NCBI GenBank assembly: GCA_016235775.1 | Contig: JACRIU010000008.1 | Location: 1 to 64,000 of the forward strand | Source: Hydrogenophilales bacterium | GTDB lineage: Bacteria; Pseudomonadota; Gammaproteobacteria; Burkholderiales; Thiobacteraceae | DNA length: 64,000 bases | Direction of reading: 5' to 3' | Shown: positions 7,674 through 63,322 of the stretch, in pieces | Position numbering within the stretch: position 1 is the stretch's first letter | Layout of the letters: every line of letters begins with the position of its first letter | Position numbers and translations under genes: made by a program | The notes under the pieces: generated by a model | The model's database searches: none | Told to the model about the DNA's origin: nothing | What the model saw: only the letters and a program-made list of their open reading frames with translations

Positions 7674-9470
7674 TTACACTTCAAACGGCGGCGGAGTGAC
7701 TTTTAATATCTCATCCGGCGTGGTGATTCCGGCCGCGACTTTCGCCGCACCGGAAACACGCAGGGCTTTCATGCCCTCCCGAAATGCCGTCTCGCGCAGC
7801 TTGGACAGGTCGCACTGGGCGGTGATGAGCCGGGTCACGGTAGGCGTCATGGTCAGAATTTCATAGATGCCGCTGCGGCCGCGATAGCCGGTCATGCGGC
7901 ATTCCAGGCAACCGACAGGGCCGTACACCGTGGCGGGCTTGGGCGCTTTCCACGGGCGCACCAACTCGCTCCAAGTGCCGTCGTCCAGGGTGGTGGCTTG
8001 TTTGCAATGCGGGCAGAGCGTGCGCACCAGGCGTTGCGCCAACACACCCAGCACGGTGGATTGAATCAGATACGGCGGCACGCCCAGATCCATCAGGCGC
8101 GTAATGGCCGAGGGGGCGTCGTTCGTGTGCAGGGTGGAGAGCACCAAGTGTCCGGTGAGCGCGGCCTGAATCGCCATCTCCGCCGTTTCCAAATCGCGAA
8201 TCTCGCCCACCATGATGATGTCCGGATCCTGCCGCATCAGGGTGCGGATACCGCTGGCGAAATCCAGGCCGATGCCGGGCTGCACTTGCATCTGATTGAA
8301 CTGCGGCACCACCATTTCAATCGGGTCTTCCACCGTGCAGACATTCACCTCCGGCTCGGCCAGATGCTTGAGCGAGGTATAGAGCGTGGTGGTTTTGCCC
8401 GAGCCGGTGGGGCCGGTGACCAGCACGATCCCATTGGGGAGAGACACCATGCCCTCCCAGCGTTTGGCTTCATCGTCGCTAAAGCCCAGTTCGGTAAAAT
8501 TGCGCACCAGCACTTCGGGATCGAAAATTCGCATCACCAACTTTTCGCCGAAGGCGGTGGGCATGGTGGAGAGGCGCAACTCGATCTCATCGCCGCCCGG
8601 CGTGACCGTCTTGACGCGGCCATCTTGCGGCCGGCGCTTTTCCACCATATCCATGCGGCCCAATAGCTTGATGCGGCTGGTGATGGCGTTGTACACCGCG
8701 CTCGGGATTTGATACACCGGATGCAGCACGCCGTCGATGCGAAAGCGCACGTTGGCGAACTCGCGCCGCGGCTCGATATGAATATCGCTCGCGCGCTGCT
8801 CGAACGCATATTGCAGCAGCCAATCCACAATGCGCACCACGCTCTGATCGTTCGCATCGAGTTGACCCATGCGCCCGAGCGCGACCAATTGCTCGAAATT
8901 GGTGATGCCACTTTGCGCCGCGCCCTCTTGCGCGCGCACCGCCTGTTTCACCGAAAGCGCCAGGCTGTAAAACTCGGCGATGTAGCGATTCAGATCGAGC
9001 GGGCTTGCGATCACGCGCCGGATCGGCCGCCGCGCCACTTGTTGCACGCTCTCTTCCCAGTCGCGCACATACGGCTCGGCGGTGGCCACCACCACTTCAT
9101 TCGCGTTCACCTCCACCGGCAGAATACGGTAGCGCGAGGCATAGGCTTGCGACATCACTTCCGTCACCGCGGCCACGTCGATCTTCAGCGGATCGATGTG
9201 ATAAGCAGAAAGGCCGGTCTTGCCCGCCAGCCATTCGATAAGAAACTCCATATTGATCACCGCGTGCGGCGGCTGCAGGCTGCGCCATTTTTGCGCGTGG
9301 ATCAGCGCCAGCGGGTGCTGGTCGGCGCGCTCGCTGCGATGTGAAGCGAGTAAATCATTTCCCACATCCTTGGGGATATGGCCATCGGCCAGCAAATCCG
9401 CGAGCACGTCCTTGAGGCGCAAGGGGCCGGAAGGCTTTGTACCTTTGCCACTGGGGCGGGTGAGATCCAT
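7674..9470 (-). CDS. GspE/PulE/PilB-type secretion/pilus ATPase with N-terminal domain
   Basis: Walker A GPTGSGKTTTLY, GEIRDLETAEMAIQAALTGHLVLSTLHTNDAPSAITRL, CxxC zinc motifs. Confidence 0.93.
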   Translation of the reverse strand: MDLTRPSGKGTKPSGPLRLKDVLADLLADGHIPKDVGNDLLASHRSERADQHPLALIHAQKWRSLQPPHAVINMEFLIEWLAGKTGLSAYHIDPLKIDVAAVTEVMSQAYASRYRILPVEVNANEVVVATAEPYVRDWEESVQQVARRPIRRVIASPLDLNRYIAEFYSLALSVKQAVRAQEGAAQSGITNFEQLVALGRMGQLDANDQSVVRIVDWLLQYAFEQRASDIHIEPRREFANVRFRIDGVLHPVYQIPSAVYNAITSRIKLLGRMDMVEKRRPQDGRVKTVTPGGDEIELRLSTMPTAFGEKLVMRIFDPEVLVRNFTELGFSDDEAKRWEGMVSLPNGIVLVTGPTGSGKTTTLYTSLKHLAEPEVNVCTVEDPIEMVVPQFNQMQVQPGIGLDFASGIRTLMRQDPDIIMVGEIRDLETAEMAIQAALTGHLVLSTLHTNDAPSAITRLMDLGVPPYLIQSTVLGVLAQRLVRTLCPHCKQATTLDDGTWSELVRPWKAPKPATVYGPVGCLECRMTGYRGRSGIYEILTMTPTVTRLITAQCDLSKLRETAFREGMKALRVSGAAKVAAGITTPDEILKVTPPPFEV

Positions 9471-23889: not shown

Positions 23890-23917
23890 ACCGGATCGAA
23901 GAAAAAACGGCAATTAG

Positions 23918-24043
23918 CCACAGAGAGCACAGAGGGCACAGAGAAAATACAGTGGCTTTATCCTCATGCCGCTTTCACCTAAAGGGTGGACTAAGACTAT
24001 GAGCCTGTCGAGCTTTTCTCTGTGCCCTCTGTGACCTCTGTGG
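23918..24043. repeat. CACAGAG inverted element, copy A
   Basis: Arm 23918-23943 (3x CACAGAG, 9-nt period), 74-nt interior, arm 24018-24043 (3x CTCTGTG). Confidence 0.95.
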
Positions 24044-24068
24044 CAAAATCTTTTTTTAGGTTGAAGCA

Positions 24069-41959: not shown

Positions 41960-41978
41960 GATGAATATAAAAAATTTG

Positions 41979-42104
41979 CCACAGAGCACACAGAGCACAC
42001 AGAGAAAAACATAAGGGGTTCTGGACTTGGCGCACTCCCCCACGGTGCTATCGAGCGCAACGCGCTAAGAACCGGCGTCTCTGTGTGCTCTGTGATCTCT
42101 GTGG
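41979..42104. repeat. CACAGAG inverted element, copy B
   Basis: Arm 41979-42004, 74-nt interior, arm 42079-42104. Confidence 0.95.
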
Positions 42105-42127
42105 CTCGCATTTAAGTTTTACCGCCT

Positions 42128-43027: not shown

Positions 43028-43065
43028 GGCAAAGGCAGTTAAAATTCGGGAAGAAAAAAATCTTG

Positions 43066-43191
43066 CCACAGAGATCACAGAGTACACAGAGGAAAGCACA
43101 GATGCATCACGATTCTTGGCCTACCCCTTGGGTGATTGATACATCACAGTGTAACCACGGGTTTTCTCTGTGGCCTCTGTGATCTCTGTGG
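43066..43191. repeat. CACAGAG inverted element, copy C
   Basis: Arm 43066-43091, 74-nt interior, arm 43166-43191. Confidence 0.95.
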
Positions 43192-43203
43192 CAAATAGGT
43201 TTT

Positions 43204-43473
43204 TTATTGAGGAATCAAATTCGCCACGCCATAAAGATCGGCGAGGCTTTTCAGCGCGGGCGGCAGGTTGGCGAAGCGCAAAGCATCGCCCTTGGCTTGA
43301 CGCCGCCATTCCAGCAGCAAGCTCACGGCGGACGAGTCGGCTTCGGTCACGCCGGCCAGATCGACCAGGGTCACCCCTTCCAGCATGCCGGCGCTCTGCG
43401 CGAGCAGCGAGGACACGCTGTCGATATTCATGGGGCCGGCGACTTTGAGCGCATCGCCTTCGCGGGTCAGCAT
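43204..43473 (-). CDS. mlaB: STAS-domain protein MlaB
   Basis: VTLVDLAGVTEADSSAVSLLLEW; position after mlaC. Confidence 0.88.
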   Translation of the reverse strand: MLTREGDALKVAGPMNIDSVSSLLAQSAGMLEGVTLVDLAGVTEADSSAVSLLLEWRRQAKGDALRFANLPPALKSLADLYGVANLIPQ

Positions 43474-52914: not shown

Positions 52915-52933
52915 CCTAAGACCGCAATGCTTG

Positions 52934-53059
52934 CCACAGAGGTCACAGAGATCACAGAGAAATGCGTGGAATGCGCATGGCTTCTGGCTCGTCCTTTTGA
53001 TAAGAGTGGTCTACCGGGAAAACCACGGTTTTACTCTGTGGCCTCTGTGTTCTCTGTAC
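52934..53059. repeat. CACAGAG inverted element, copy D
   Basis: Arm 52934-52959, 74-nt interior, arm 53034-53059, then the variant tail ACCCCGGCGGGTAGGCTGCGCGCTGGCAAA. Confidence 0.94.
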
Positions 53060-53111
53060 CCCGGCGGGTAGGCTGCGCGCTGGCAAATTGTTTTTTCTAG
53101 GATAGCGCCCC

Positions 53112-57487: not shown

Positions 57488-59197
57488 ATGAACGAACAAC
57501 GTAAAAAACCCCGCTTGGGCGATCTGCTGGTGCAGCAGGGGCTGATCACGCAGGATCAGTTGCGCATCGCGCTGATCGAGCAGGAACAAAACAAGCTGCC
57601 ACTGGGCCAGCAGTTGGTGTTGTTGGGCTTCGTGACGGAAGCGGTGATCCGCGACATCGTGGCGCAGACCATCGGCCAGGAAAGCGTGGATCTGGCCGCG
57701 GTCGCGGCCGATGTGGAGGCGATGAGGCTGGTGCCGGAGGATTTCGCGCGCCGCCATAATCTGCTGCCGATCGCTTTCGATCCCGAGAAGCAGCGGCTGG
57801 TGATCGCGATGTCGGACATGTTCAACGTGGTGGCGCTGGATCAGCTGCGCGCCATGATCGACCCGCAAACCGAGATCAAGGCCGTGCTAGCGGGGCTGGC
57901 GCAGTTGCAGGAGCACATCGATCGCTTTTACGGTTATGAGTTGTCGGTGGATGGCATTCTGCGCGAAATCGAAACCGGCGAAATCGATTATCAGAGCCTG
58001 CAAACCGCCGGCGGCGAAACGGAATACACGCAGCCGGTGGTGCGGCTGGTGAATTCCCTGCTGGTGGATGCGGTGAAGCACGGCTCGTCCGATATCCACT
58101 TCGAGCCGGAATTCGCTTTTCTGCGCATCCGCTACCGCATCGACGGCGTGCTGGAGCAAGTGCGCAGCCTGCACAAAACCTATTGGCCGAGCATCGCGGT
58201 GCGGCTCAAGGTGATGAGCGGCATCAACATCGCGGAGACCCGCGCCGCGCAGGACGGGCGCTTCTCGCTCAATCTTTCCGGGCGTCCGATCGACTTTCGC
58301 GTCTCCACCCAGCCGACGGTGTACGGCGAGAATATCGTGCTGCGGATTCTGGATCGCGAGCGTTCGATCATCCCGCTCGAACGCATGGATCTGACGGACG
58401 ACACGCTCGCCACCTTGCGTTTGATGATGGCGCGGCCGGAGGGCATTCTGATCGTGACCGGCCCCACCGGCTCCGGCAAAACCACCACGCTGTATTCGCT
58501 GCTGACGCATCTCAATAACGAAACCATCAACATCATGACGCTGGAAGACCCGGTGGAATACCCGGTGACGCTGATGCGCCAGACCTCGGTCAACGAGACC
58601 GTGAAAATGGATTTCGTGAACGGCATCCGCTCCATCATGCGCCAAGACCCGGATGTGATTCTGGTGGGCGAGGTGCGCGACAAGGATACGGCGGAGATGG
58701 CGTTTCGCGCCGCGATGACCGGGCATCAAGTCTTCACTACGCTGCACACCAACTCCGCGCTCGGCACGTTTCCGCGCTTGCTGGATATCGGCATCTCAAC
58801 CGAGATCATGGCCGGCAATATCATCGGCGTCATCGCGCAACGCCTGGTGCGGGTGCTGTGCCCGCATTGCAAGGAAGCCTATGCCCCGAGTATGGAGGAA
58901 TGCCAGTTATTGGGCATGGGGACGCAATGCGTCACGACCATCTACCGCGCGGTGGGTTGCAAGCTTTGCCACCATAAGGGCTATCGCGGGCGCATGGCCT
59001 TGATGGAGCTGCTGTTCATGGATGGCGACTTGGATGATCTCGTCGCGCGCCACGCCACCTTGCGTGAATTGCGCGAAGCCGCGCTCACCAAAGGCTTCAA
59101 GCCCTTGGCGGAAGACGGCATCCGGCGCGTGATGGAGGGGCGCACCAGCCTGGCGGAAGTGTCGCGCGTGGTGGATCTGACCGGCCGCCTGCGCTAA
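57488..59197 (+). CDS. MshE-like GspE/PilB family ATPase
   Basis: MNEQRKKPRLGDLLVQQGLITQDQLRIALIEQ; GPTGSGKTTTLYSLLTHLNNETINIMTLEDPVEYPV. Confidence 0.94.
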   Translation: MNEQRKKPRLGDLLVQQGLITQDQLRIALIEQEQNKLPLGQQLVLLGFVTEAVIRDIVAQTIGQESVDLAAVAADVEAMRLVPEDFARRHNLLPIAFDPEKQRLVIAMSDMFNVVALDQLRAMIDPQTEIKAVLAGLAQLQEHIDRFYGYELSVDGILREIETGEIDYQSLQTAGGETEYTQPVVRLVNSLLVDAVKHGSSDIHFEPEFAFLRIRYRIDGVLEQVRSLHKTYWPSIAVRLKVMSGINIAETRAAQDGRFSLNLSGRPIDFRVSTQPTVYGENIVLRILDRERSIIPLERMDLTDDTLATLRLMMARPEGILIVTGPTGSGKTTTLYSLLTHLNNETINIMTLEDPVEYPVTLMRQTSVNETVKMDFVNGIRSIMRQDPDVILVGEVRDKDTAEMAFRAAMTGHQVFTTLHTNSALGTFPRLLDIGISTEIMAGNIIGVIAQRLVRVLCPHCKEAYAPSMEECQLLGMGTQCVTTIYRAVGCKLCHHKGYRGRMALMELLFMDGDLDDLVARHATLRELREAALTKGFKPLAEDGIRRVMEGRTSLAEVSRVVDLTGRLR

Positions 59198-60471: not shown

Positions 60472-62013
60472 ATGTCCACCAAAATTCTCGCCAGCCTGTC
60501 CGCGCGCAAAGCCTGCTTTGCCTTGTTTAAGCATGGCGGTCTGACCGGTTTCACCGCTTACGACAACGACGACCGCGCCTTGCGCGCCTTCGGCGAGTTG
60601 ATCGCGCGCCACCCGGATGCGCCGGTGTATCTGATGGTGGACACGGTGGAGGAAGAATACCGCACCGAGCTCATGCCGCATGTATGGGGCGGCGCGCGGC
60701 GCGAGATGTCCAAGCGCAAGCTCGCGCAACTGTTTCGCACCGTGCCTTATCGCGCGGCCTGGCTGCAGGGCCGCGACAGCGCCGCGGGCAAGCGGCGCGA
60801 TGATGTGTATTTGTTTCTCGCGCTGAATTCCGGCGACTTGCTGCGGCCCTATCTCGAATACATTCATTCACGCCGCGCGCCACTGGCCGGTATTTTCCTT
60901 TTGCCGCAAGTGACGCAGGCGCTGGCGTCGCGCCTCAAGTGCGACACCGCGGGCGTGCTGCTGGTTTCGCGCCAGCAGGGCGGCCTGCGCCAAAGTTTCT
61001 TTTTGCAGGGCCGCCTGCGCATCAGCCGCTTGACCCCGCTCGACCCGCTGGGCGAGCCGGCCACGGCCGAATCCTATGCGGCGGAAGTTGAAAAGAGCCG
61101 GCTATTTCTCTACAACAGCCGGCTGCTGCCGCGTGAAGCGCGCTTGACCGTGCTCATCCTCGACATCGACGACGGCTTGGCGCAAGTGCCGGGTTTGTTG
61201 AGTCAAGACGCGTCCTTTCACTGCCAGCGCCTCGGGTTTGAACAATTGCGTGCGGCATTGAGCTTAGGGCCGGCCGATCTGCCGCGCGACCCGGAAGCGC
61301 TGCATCTATTATTGCTGGGTAAATATCCGCCGCAAGCAAGCCTGGCCGAGCCGCGTCTCACCGGCGATTTCACCTCGCACCAGTTGCGCACCGGTTTGTA
61401 TGCCATCAGTCTGGCCATCGCCGTCACGGCGCTCGCTTGGAGCGGGTACAACTTGTATCGCGGCTATGCCAATCAATCCGCGACGCAAAGCGCCATCGCC
61501 GATACCGCGCGCTACCGCACTCAATATGCGGAAGCAGCCAAGCAGTTTCCGGCGGCGCCGGTGGCCGCCGAACATTTGCGCCAAGCGGTAGAAGTCGCGG
61601 ATCAGATCAAGAAATTTGCGCGCACGCCCGAACCTTTCATGCAGTTGCTGGGCCTTGTGTTGAGCGAGTTCCCGCAAATCGAACTCAGCCGCCTCGACTG
61701 GCGCTATGCCTCGACCACCGCCGCGCCGCAATCATCCGCCGGCGGCGTCAGCCCGAGCGCGTGGCAACAGCAGGGCGAGATCGAGGCGGAGATACGCCCC
61801 TTCAACGGCGATTACCGCGCCGCCTTGCTGTTGATCGAGCGCTTCGCGGCACGCTTGCGCGCGCAGCCCAATGTGGCGGGCGTCAGTATCGTCAAGCTGC
61901 CGCTCAATCTGGATCCGGCCAGCACGCTCAGCGGCAGCACGCAAGATAGCTCGGACGCCAAGCCGGGCGCGGCGCAATTCAAGCTCGGCATCGTGATCAG
62001 GCGCGAGTCATGA
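60472..62013 (+). CDS. MshI/PilMN-like pilus biogenesis protein
   Basis: Position between MshG- and MshJ-like genes; single TM at GLYAISLAIAVTALAWSGYNLY. Confidence 0.75.
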   Translation: MSTKILASLSARKACFALFKHGGLTGFTAYDNDDRALRAFGELIARHPDAPVYLMVDTVEEEYRTELMPHVWGGARREMSKRKLAQLFRTVPYRAAWLQGRDSAAGKRRDDVYLFLALNSGDLLRPYLEYIHSRRAPLAGIFLLPQVTQALASRLKCDTAGVLLVSRQQGGLRQSFFLQGRLRISRLTPLDPLGEPATAESYAAEVEKSRLFLYNSRLLPREARLTVLILDIDDGLAQVPGLLSQDASFHCQRLGFEQLRAALSLGPADLPRDPEALHLLLLGKYPPQASLAEPRLTGDFTSHQLRTGLYAISLAIAVTALAWSGYNLYRGYANQSATQSAIADTARYRTQYAEAAKQFPAAPVAAEHLRQAVEVADQIKKFARTPEPFMQLLGLVLSEFPQIELSRLDWRYASTTAAPQSSAGGVSPSAWQQQGEIEAEIRPFNGDYRAALLLIERFAARLRAQPNVAGVSIVKLPLNLDPASTLSGSTQDSSDAKPGAAQFKLGIVIRRES

Positions 62014-62627
62014 AGCTCAAAGAATTCAACTGGCGTATCCTGCGCACACCCTTGTTGGTGCTGTTGGGCAGCCTGGCCGCCTCTTCCGCCTGGGTTTATT
62101 TCTCCCACCAATGGACCAACAGCACACGGCAAACACTCGAACGCGAACGCGTAGTGCTCAACGGTATCCGTCAAAAATCCACCCAAGCGGATCAGGAAAA
62201 ACTGCTCATCCAACGCTATCGCGACGCCTATGAGGATTTGCAAAAAAGCGGCGCGGTTGGGCCGGAGCAGCGCGTCAATTGGCTCGATGCCCTGCGCAGC
62301 GCAAGCCAAACCGTGCGCAGCCTGGGGGTGGATTATCAGCTCAGCCAGCAAACGGCTTCGCCCATCAAGCTCGATACCGGCGCGTATAAATTGCAGCAAT
62401 CGACTATGAAGCTGCGCATCAAATTGCTGCACGAGGGGGATTTGCCGAGCTTTTTAAGCGCCTTGGATGCGGAGCGGCCTGGACTCTATTTACTCCAAAG
62501 CTGTAGTTTGACGCGCAGTTCGGGCGGCGCTTTCAGCGTGCGCTATGAGCCAAAATTGGCCGCGGAATGCGAGTTGCTCTGGCTGTCCCTGATCGAAGCC
62601 GGTGCTGCGGAGGCGACGAAAAAATGA
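62010..62627 (+). CDS. MshJ/PilO-like protein
   Basis: TM near the N-terminus and coiled coil; 4-nt overlaps on both sides. Confidence 0.75.
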   Translation: MKLKEFNWRILRTPLLVLLGSLAASSAWVYFSHQWTNSTRQTLERERVVLNGIRQKSTQADQEKLLIQRYRDAYEDLQKSGAVGPEQRVNWLDALRSASQTVRSLGVDYQLSQQTASPIKLDTGAYKLQQSTMKLRIKLLHEGDLPSFLSALDAERPGLYLLQSCSLTRSSGGAFSVRYEPKLAAECELLWLSLIEAGAAEATKK

Positions 62628-63322
62628 AAATCAAAAAAACCATTTGCCACAGAGAGCACAGAGGTCACAGAGAAAACCCGCGGGCAATCTCTCCCTTTGC
62701 AAAAGGGAGGCTAGGAGGGATTTTTAGAAGAAGCAAAATGTGCTATGCATTGACAATTTCAATACAAAACCATGCGTGCACTGTGATTTTCTCTGTGATC
62801 TCTGTGTCCTCTGCGGCAAGAATTTTTGTTCCTAGAAAGCGGCACCTAGCATTGCTGTTTATTTGCGCATTCCCGCTCTTAGCCCAAGCCGAAACGCTCG
62901 GCCGCTTGTTCCATACCCCGGAACAGCGCGCCCTGCTCGACCTCGCGCGCAAATCCACCCCCTTGAATGCGAGCGGCGAACCGGATGCGGCCAGCGGGCA
63001 AGGCCTGTCGGTTAGCGGCATCGTCACCCGCAGCGACGGCAAACGCAGCACTTGGGTTAACGGCCGCTTGGAACACGATGCCGCCATCACCGGAAAACAA
63101 GATCGCACCCAAGTGTGGGTCAAGCTCCCCGGTGGCGAAGTCAAACTGAAAGTCGGCCAAAGCCTCGATCCGGCCACCGGCCAAGTGGCCGAGGGTTATC
63201 GCCGCGCGCCGCCGCCCGAGCCTGCCGCCGCCAAACCCGCACCCCCCAAAGCCCCCACCAAAGCGCCTGTTCCGGCCACCCGCGATGACAACGCCGAGCC
63301 AGATCAACCCGCCACGCAGTAG
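62624..63322 (+). CDS. MshK/PilP-like periplasmic protein with repeat-derived N-terminus
   Basis: C-terminal IVTRSDGKRSTWVNGRLEHD...VKLKVGQSLDPATGQV; ATG at 62624 overlaps the upstream TGA. Confidence 0.75.
   Translation: MKIKKTICHREHRGHRENPRAISPFAKGRLGGIFRRSKMCYALTISIQNHACTVIFSVISVSSAARIFVPRKRHLALLFICAFPLLAQAETLGRLFHTPEQRALLDLARKSTPLNASGEPDAASGQGLSVSGIVTRSDGKRSTWVNGRLEHDAAITGKQDRTQVWVKLPGGEVKLKVGQSLDPATGQVAEGYRRAPPPEPAAAKPAPPKAPTKAPVPATRDDNAEPDQPATQ
62647..62816. repeat. CACAGAG inverted element, copy E, with nested AGGGAGG-type half repeat
   Basis: Arm 62647-62672, 118-nt interior (including CTCCCTTTGCAAAAGGGAGGCTAGGAGGGATTTTT), arm 62791-62816. Confidence 0.94.

Follow-up and report, generated by a model that had tools for sequence, protein, structure and literature searches.

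Copy E, a palindromic repeat at the start of an mshK-like gene, is probably a gene-less mobile palindrome of a class that includes GxxExxY genes (TIGR04256/PF13366, PDDEXK_3); it has inserted behind the mshK start codon and is likely read through from the ATG at 62624. Positions refer to the window, the whole 64,000-nucleotide stretch analyzed from a Hydrogenophilales genome (G000). The ATG at 62624-62626 overlaps the MshJ stop codon (TGA, 62625-62627), as the first-pass annotation of this DNA had stated, and the frame is open as far as 63322. Its claim that this frame runs without a stop through copy E into a signal-peptide-like segment was also borne out, the translation being exactly the peptide it quoted. 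The MshK-like protein matched no Pfam or NCBIfam model and is identified by synteny only. The features of the locus are as follows.

62010..62627, + strand: mshJ-like gene (from the ORF list and synteny with mshL/mshE), with its stop TGA overlapping the mshK ATG
62609..62613, + strand: Shine-Dalgarno sequence GGAGG for ATG 62624, likewise upstream of mshK in G003, G005, and G007
62624..63322, + strand: mshK-like ORF, including the element-encoded N-terminal stretch
62627..62833 (approximate limits), no strand assigned: inserted element, copy E, delimited by the empty sites of G005 and G007, with an A-rich left end and a T-rich right end
62643..62676, + strand: left arm, TTTGC followed by CACAGAG at 62648, 62657, and 62666 and by AAAA, read as HREHRGHREN
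62690..62727 (approximate), no strand assigned: nested second palindromic repeat, TCTCCCTTTGCAAAAGGGAGGCTAGGAGGGATTTTTAG; ISPFAKGRLGGIF, which forms a separate interspersed family
62738..62740, + strand: alternative in-frame ATG inside the element
62787..62819, − strand: right arm, with inverted CTCTGTG, CTCTGTG, and CTCTGCG (one mutated) at about 62791, 62800, and 62809
62834..62890, + strand: original MshK signal peptide, RKRHLALLFICAFPLLAQA, which lies directly behind the start codon in G005 and G007

Copy E was confirmed as a repeat with an arm and an inverted arm, and it is one of five copies within the window. The other four are listed here (no strand assigned).

23905..24057: sister copy with the canonical 74-nt core
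41965..42118: sister copy whose site is cleanly empty in G005 and G002
43052..43205: sister copy whose orthologous site holds a CACGGGG-type element in G005 and G007 and a decayed element in G003
52920..53063: diverged sister copy

About 40 element copies were retrieved from the G000 genome, and a pattern scan returned 147 CACRGAG triplet arms. The copy number together with the empty sites rules out copy E as a chance repeat. A canonical copy comprises an A-rich end, TTTGC, three CACAGAG heptamers with two variable spacer bases, AAAA, a core of ∼74 nt, and then the mirror image of this arrangement; across the 37 paired copies in G000, the heptamers are almost invariant and the spacers variable. 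Within one copy, the left and right arms have different two-base spacers, as seen in all five window copies (23905-62833) and in G000 copies L134 to L163. No match to the element was found in Rfam. A second interspersed palindrome lengthens the core of copy E to 118 nt. Copy E is a composite element, the second palindrome being nested inside the heptamer arms, and this corrects the first-pass annotation. The inner palindrome is also present in several copies in G003, G004, and G007. At the 43052-43205 site, the CACAGAG type in G000 and the CACGGGG type in G005 and G007 suggest that the heptamers were replaced or that the insertion site was used more than once. A contig end in G000 (L162:2502-2589, end of C105) carries some ten CACAGAGAT units in tandem, representing either array growth or an assembly artifact.

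Copy E is short and noncoding, has terminal inverted repeats, and belongs to a family with many dispersed copies, as is the case for MITEs. Insertion polymorphism was found both for copy E (in G005 and G007) and for copy 41965, the latter providing a second clean empty site. No target site duplication was consistent across copies. Direct repeats in the flanks were not longer than in permuted pairs (mean, 4.89 versus 4.88), and three copies had direct repeats of 6 to 8 nt at 17 to 23 nt from the arms.

G005 and G007, both close relatives of G000, lack the insert at mshK and read ATGAAGCGCATAGTG; the same ATG overlaps the mshJ stop, and the signal peptide follows straight after. A comparison with orthologues lacking the element had been proposed by the first-pass annotation. 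These two genomes provide it, and their empty site, together with the frame retained in G003, supports the earlier claim that the element lies just behind the start codon with coupling and frame kept. G003, a third relative, shares the mshK insertion with the same inner palindrome but lacks one 9-nt unit and the right arm and has extra core DNA. The distance from the ATG to the signal peptide is 222 nt in G000 and 159 nt in G003, a net difference of 63 nt, and both frames are open. Alignment by hand resolved the 63 nt into changes of about −9, +54, and −108 nt, all multiples of three; automatic alignment placed the gaps differently, and therefore only the net figure was relied on. A tree built from the mshI/J flank had the topology (G003,(G000,(G005,G007))), with support of 0.90 for each inner split (sequences of the downstream flank aligned poorly, and the tree from them was unusable). 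The simplest history is a single insertion in the common ancestor followed by a single clean loss on the G005/G007 side, with recombination or two independent insertions as possible alternatives.

Across these four species, mature MshK is under purifying selection whether the element is present or absent (dN/dS, 0.07 to 0.13), with values of 0.096 for G000 and G003 and 0.074 to 0.129 in comparisons with G005 and G007. Since the frame was kept and the mature part is under purifying selection, mshK works despite the insertion. The G000 assembly is a draft of 140 contigs with 5.6% estimated contamination, which could raise the suspicion that the insertion is an assembly artifact or that mshK is dead in this lineage. 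This is very improbable: the same insertion in the separate assembly of G003 largely refutes an artifact, and an intact ORF with a dN/dS of about 0.1 rules out a dead gene.

The mRNA hairpin formed by the element is very stable (−103 kcal/mol; z, −6.4), several copies adjoin start codons, and one orthologous site holds different heptamer types. These features would suit arms that act as regulatory or structural hairpins (terminators, mRNA stabilizers, or protein-binding sites) and are selected at gene borders without being mobile. Such an explanation is improbable, however, given the clean presence/absence polymorphism at two sites, the many copies with variable cores, and the existence of an autonomous-looking version with a nuclease gene.

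The open frame across copy E was assessed against the other copies. Of 222 frames in the 37 paired copies of G000, 60 (27%) cross the entire element without a stop; such frames are common because the CACAGAGNN unit forms no stop on the forward strand. Given this base rate, an open frame alone is weak evidence, and it was rejected as proof of selection. What goes beyond chance is the empty site in G005/G007 and the frame retained in G003. Translation of mshK likely initiates at 62624, judging from the sequence around the candidate starts: this ATG is the only one in G000 with a Shine-Dalgarno sequence, and none was found for ATG 62738 or for the in-frame GTG and TTG codons. The retained frame of G003 also favors the 62624 start, but G003 has, in addition, an ATG directly before the signal peptide. 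Initiation at 62624 would lengthen the predicted product by about 70 residues, among them a second hydrophobic stretch, FSVISVSSAA, which is the right arm read in the mshK frame. The choice posed by the first-pass annotation, between some 60 repeat-encoded residues and a later start such as 62738, therefore stands in form, with the extension revised to about 70 residues and 62738 found to lack a Shine-Dalgarno sequence.

A start within or beyond the element (ATG 62738 or GTG 62783, 62795, or 62804), used by reinitiation after mshJ and leaving the repeat as an untranslated leader, is the less probable arrangement, though it has evidence in its favor. Signal peptides normally have a short N-region, the signal peptide of G003 is immediately preceded by ATGCGTTTAGCC with GGAGAG upstream, and other element copies lie shortly before the ATG that belongs to a gene itself. 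Weighing against an internal start are the lack of a Shine-Dalgarno sequence at any internal candidate in G000, the preservation of the 62624 frame in G000 and G003 despite their 63-nt net difference, and the intact state of both the Shine-Dalgarno sequence and the ATG at 62624. The very stable mRNA hairpin might hinder translation.

Copy E is the only clear host gene fusion among about 37 paired copies; in the other copies examined, the long open frames either are those of genes whose own ATG lies a short way downstream or look antisense. An element inside a gene at L141 was considered as a second fusion and rejected, as its frame looks antisense. Another element, at L139 (2300-2560), lies where a gene begins and is bordered on both outer sides by ATGAAAC; it shares its frame with a periplasmic-binding-protein-like gene, which has an ATG of its own behind the element as well.

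The first-pass annotation had missed that the element class encodes GxxExxY nucleases, genes for which are flanked by the same kind of arms. A PF13366 search of 31 genomes located GxxExxY genes in six of the eight that belong to this genus; the 23 others had none. Wherever their flanks in this genus could be read, inverted tandem-heptamer arms were present, the heptamer differing from locus to locus (CGCAAAG/CGCGAAG, CACGGGG, CACGAAT, and CGCCAAG, and CACAGAG in G002). The G002 locus, L051, has a TIGR04256 gene (E value, 8.5e−41) between three CACAGAG and three CTCTGTG heptamers and is a gene-bearing copy that shares its heptamer arms with copy E; loci L043 to L050 and L052 have the same flank type with other heptamers, where readable. 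The GxxExxY gene of G000 itself has CACGAAT rather than CACAGAG arms. In G005, elements are present and the PF13366 search gave no GxxExxY match; its assembly, like that of G000, is incomplete. A full heptamer element comprises two inverted arms of three tandem heptamers at 8- to 10-nt spacing with a GxxExxY gene between them. Copy E has the arms, but its 118-nt core contains no gene, and it can therefore only be a gene-less derivative. Since GxxExxY genes share its arm architecture, we place copy E as a gene-less, MITE-like member of the GxxExxY-nuclease element class.

A wider test covered 80 named GxxExxY loci from many phyla. A flank-inversion score of ≥15 was reached by 47 of 77 loci, compared with 0 of 62 displaced controls and 43 of 760 cross-locus pairs. 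A strict six-heptamer test was passed by 33/76 loci and 0/64 controls; it fails in more than half of the loci partly because arms have decayed or lie outside the interval searched. With heptamer types assigned by hand from the arms, heptamer type correlated with the protein tree (Mantel r, 0.356; P = 0.0002, without correction for shared ancestry), and the nearest neighbor in the tree had the same heptamer in 16 of 49 cases (5.4 expected). Residue T4 covaried with heptamer position 5 and T91 with position 2, and these individual covariations, for which ancestry was partly checked, are suggestive. In 19 of 32 loci the reading frame of the GxxExxY gene continues open across the arm, in some cases with no ATG following it, which may be why arms lack stops. 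CACRGAG triplet arms were identified in 14 of 15 scanned genomes with GxxExxY loci (1 to 189 each, with zero control matches), many of them as close inverted pairs too near to hold a gene. Arms and GxxExxY genes co-occur across genomes, and for the richest family the comparison of arms with gene by genome (16/22 versus 32/52) was not significant; this association is confounded by lineage, and therefore the flank test was relied on instead.

The AlphaFold model of a GxxExxY protein had a pLDDT of 96, and no solved relative was found in the PDB by sequence. The best solved fold matches were Cas4 SSO0001, LHK-Exo, and lambda exonuclease, all weak (E values, 0.009 to 0.08). Across 39 sequences, D64, E74, K76, and Q88 are invariant and Y92 is present in at least 90%, placing the RecB/Cas4-type motif residues (D64, E74xK76, and Q88xxxY92) on a matching fold. 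By these residues and weak fold matches, GxxExxY is a predicted small RecB/Cas4-type PD-(D/E)XK nuclease. The family is named, and a search of open, CC-licensed PMC literature yielded no known function for it and no link to flanking repeats.

From these data we infer that GxxExxY could be the mobilizing enzyme. The protein would recognize the heptamers of the arms, whose 9- to 10-nt period would place successive heptamers on about the same helix face for binding, and would cut the element, probably as a folded-out hairpin, at the hairpin or its base. Cutting would let the element move or be copied, with gene-less copies served in trans. At mshK, a copy with the second palindrome in its core would have entered directly behind the start codon in the ancestor of G000, G003, G005, and G007. 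Ribosomes starting at the intact Shine-Dalgarno sequence and ATG 62624 could then read through into the signal peptide, which is possible because heptamer arms hardly ever contain stops. The mshK gene would have kept its function, the indels that later arose between the G000 and G003 lineages preserving the frame, and the G005/G007 lineage would have shed the element cleanly. More broadly, and with somewhat more reserve, we lean toward GxxExxY proteins being the dedicated enzymes of unrecognized, phylum-crossing mobile palindromes, each variant reading its own heptamer and amplifying gene-less copies in trans. The arms would stay translatable, so that a copy arriving just after a start codon, as at mshK, could be tolerated by forming an extension of the protein.

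Alternatively, the arms may be an ordinary transposase-driven MITE family, with GxxExxY riding between them as a passenger or defense gene. MITEs normally borrow a DDE or HUH transposase, PD-(D/E)XK nucleases are common in defense, PADLOC Cas4 models match GxxExxY weakly (E value, about 1e−4), and neither a target site duplication nor cleavage ties GxxExxY to movement. We consider this unlikely, as GxxExxY recurs between arms across many phyla with various heptamers (in a survey that began from GxxExxY genes), the arm is often open in its frame, and arm type tracks the protein.

In-frame palindromes (Rickettsia and enterobacteria) and repeats with a dedicated nuclease (REP/RAYT) are already known. 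REP/REPIN sequences are nonautonomous palindromes served by a single dedicated nuclease gene (RAYT), which those repeats flank. The RAYT enzymes are HUH (Y1) transposases, and their REPs are short. The elements described here have triplet heptamer arms and a PD-(D/E)XK nuclease instead; the gene observed between their repeats is GxxExxY, of the TIGR04256/PF13366 family, and not an HUH (Y1) transposase. Rpn proteins also have the PD-(D/E)XK fold but belong to another family than GxxExxY, and we know of no flanking heptamer arms for them. Rpn (Transposase_31) proteins are reported as DNA mobility proteins (PMC5350276) and later as phage defense toxin-antitoxins (PMC10327210).

Rickettsia palindromic elements (RPEs) are palindromic repeats of 100 to 200 nt lying in frame within protein-coding genes, and nearly half of those in R. 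conorii lie inside ORFs (PMC10969869). Copy E is likewise a palindromic repeat inserted in frame in a protein-coding gene. The RPEs are set apart, by description, by frequent in-frame insertion in unrelated ORFs; here in-frame fusion is the exception, because the frames of other copies belong to genes with their own ATG or look antisense. The comparison with Rickettsia drawn by the first-pass annotation thus holds as an analogy but not for how often fusion occurs. To our knowledge, the version with a nuclease gene has no RPE counterpart. The ERIC/RU repeats of enterobacteria appear to differ from heptamer elements in sequence and architecture. As far as the consulted part of one report describes them, they are MITE-like repeats whose ORFs join those of the host in frame, N termini included, and it gives no cognate enzyme for them (PMC2759123); in that account they resemble copy E as small mobile repeats in frame at the N terminus of a host protein.

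Neither a heptamer-arm element encoding a PD-(D/E)XK nuclease nor the arm sequence was found in the open literature searched (CC-licensed PMC papers), and the element class is apparently both widespread and undescribed. GxxExxY is a widespread family named in databases by its motif only, and the link to heptamer arms gives it a testable function. The CCACAGAG/CCACGGAG repeats of many genomes likewise gain a candidate engine. With occupied and empty sites in sister species, mshK offers a natural experiment in which a palindrome entered a secreted protein without destroying it. Elsewhere in the window, long inverted similarities were observed between 7995-8450 and 58424-58879. The right-hand segment lies inside an mshE-like ATPase gene, and the similarity probably reflects a paralogous ATPase gene on the opposite strand, not a repeat element.
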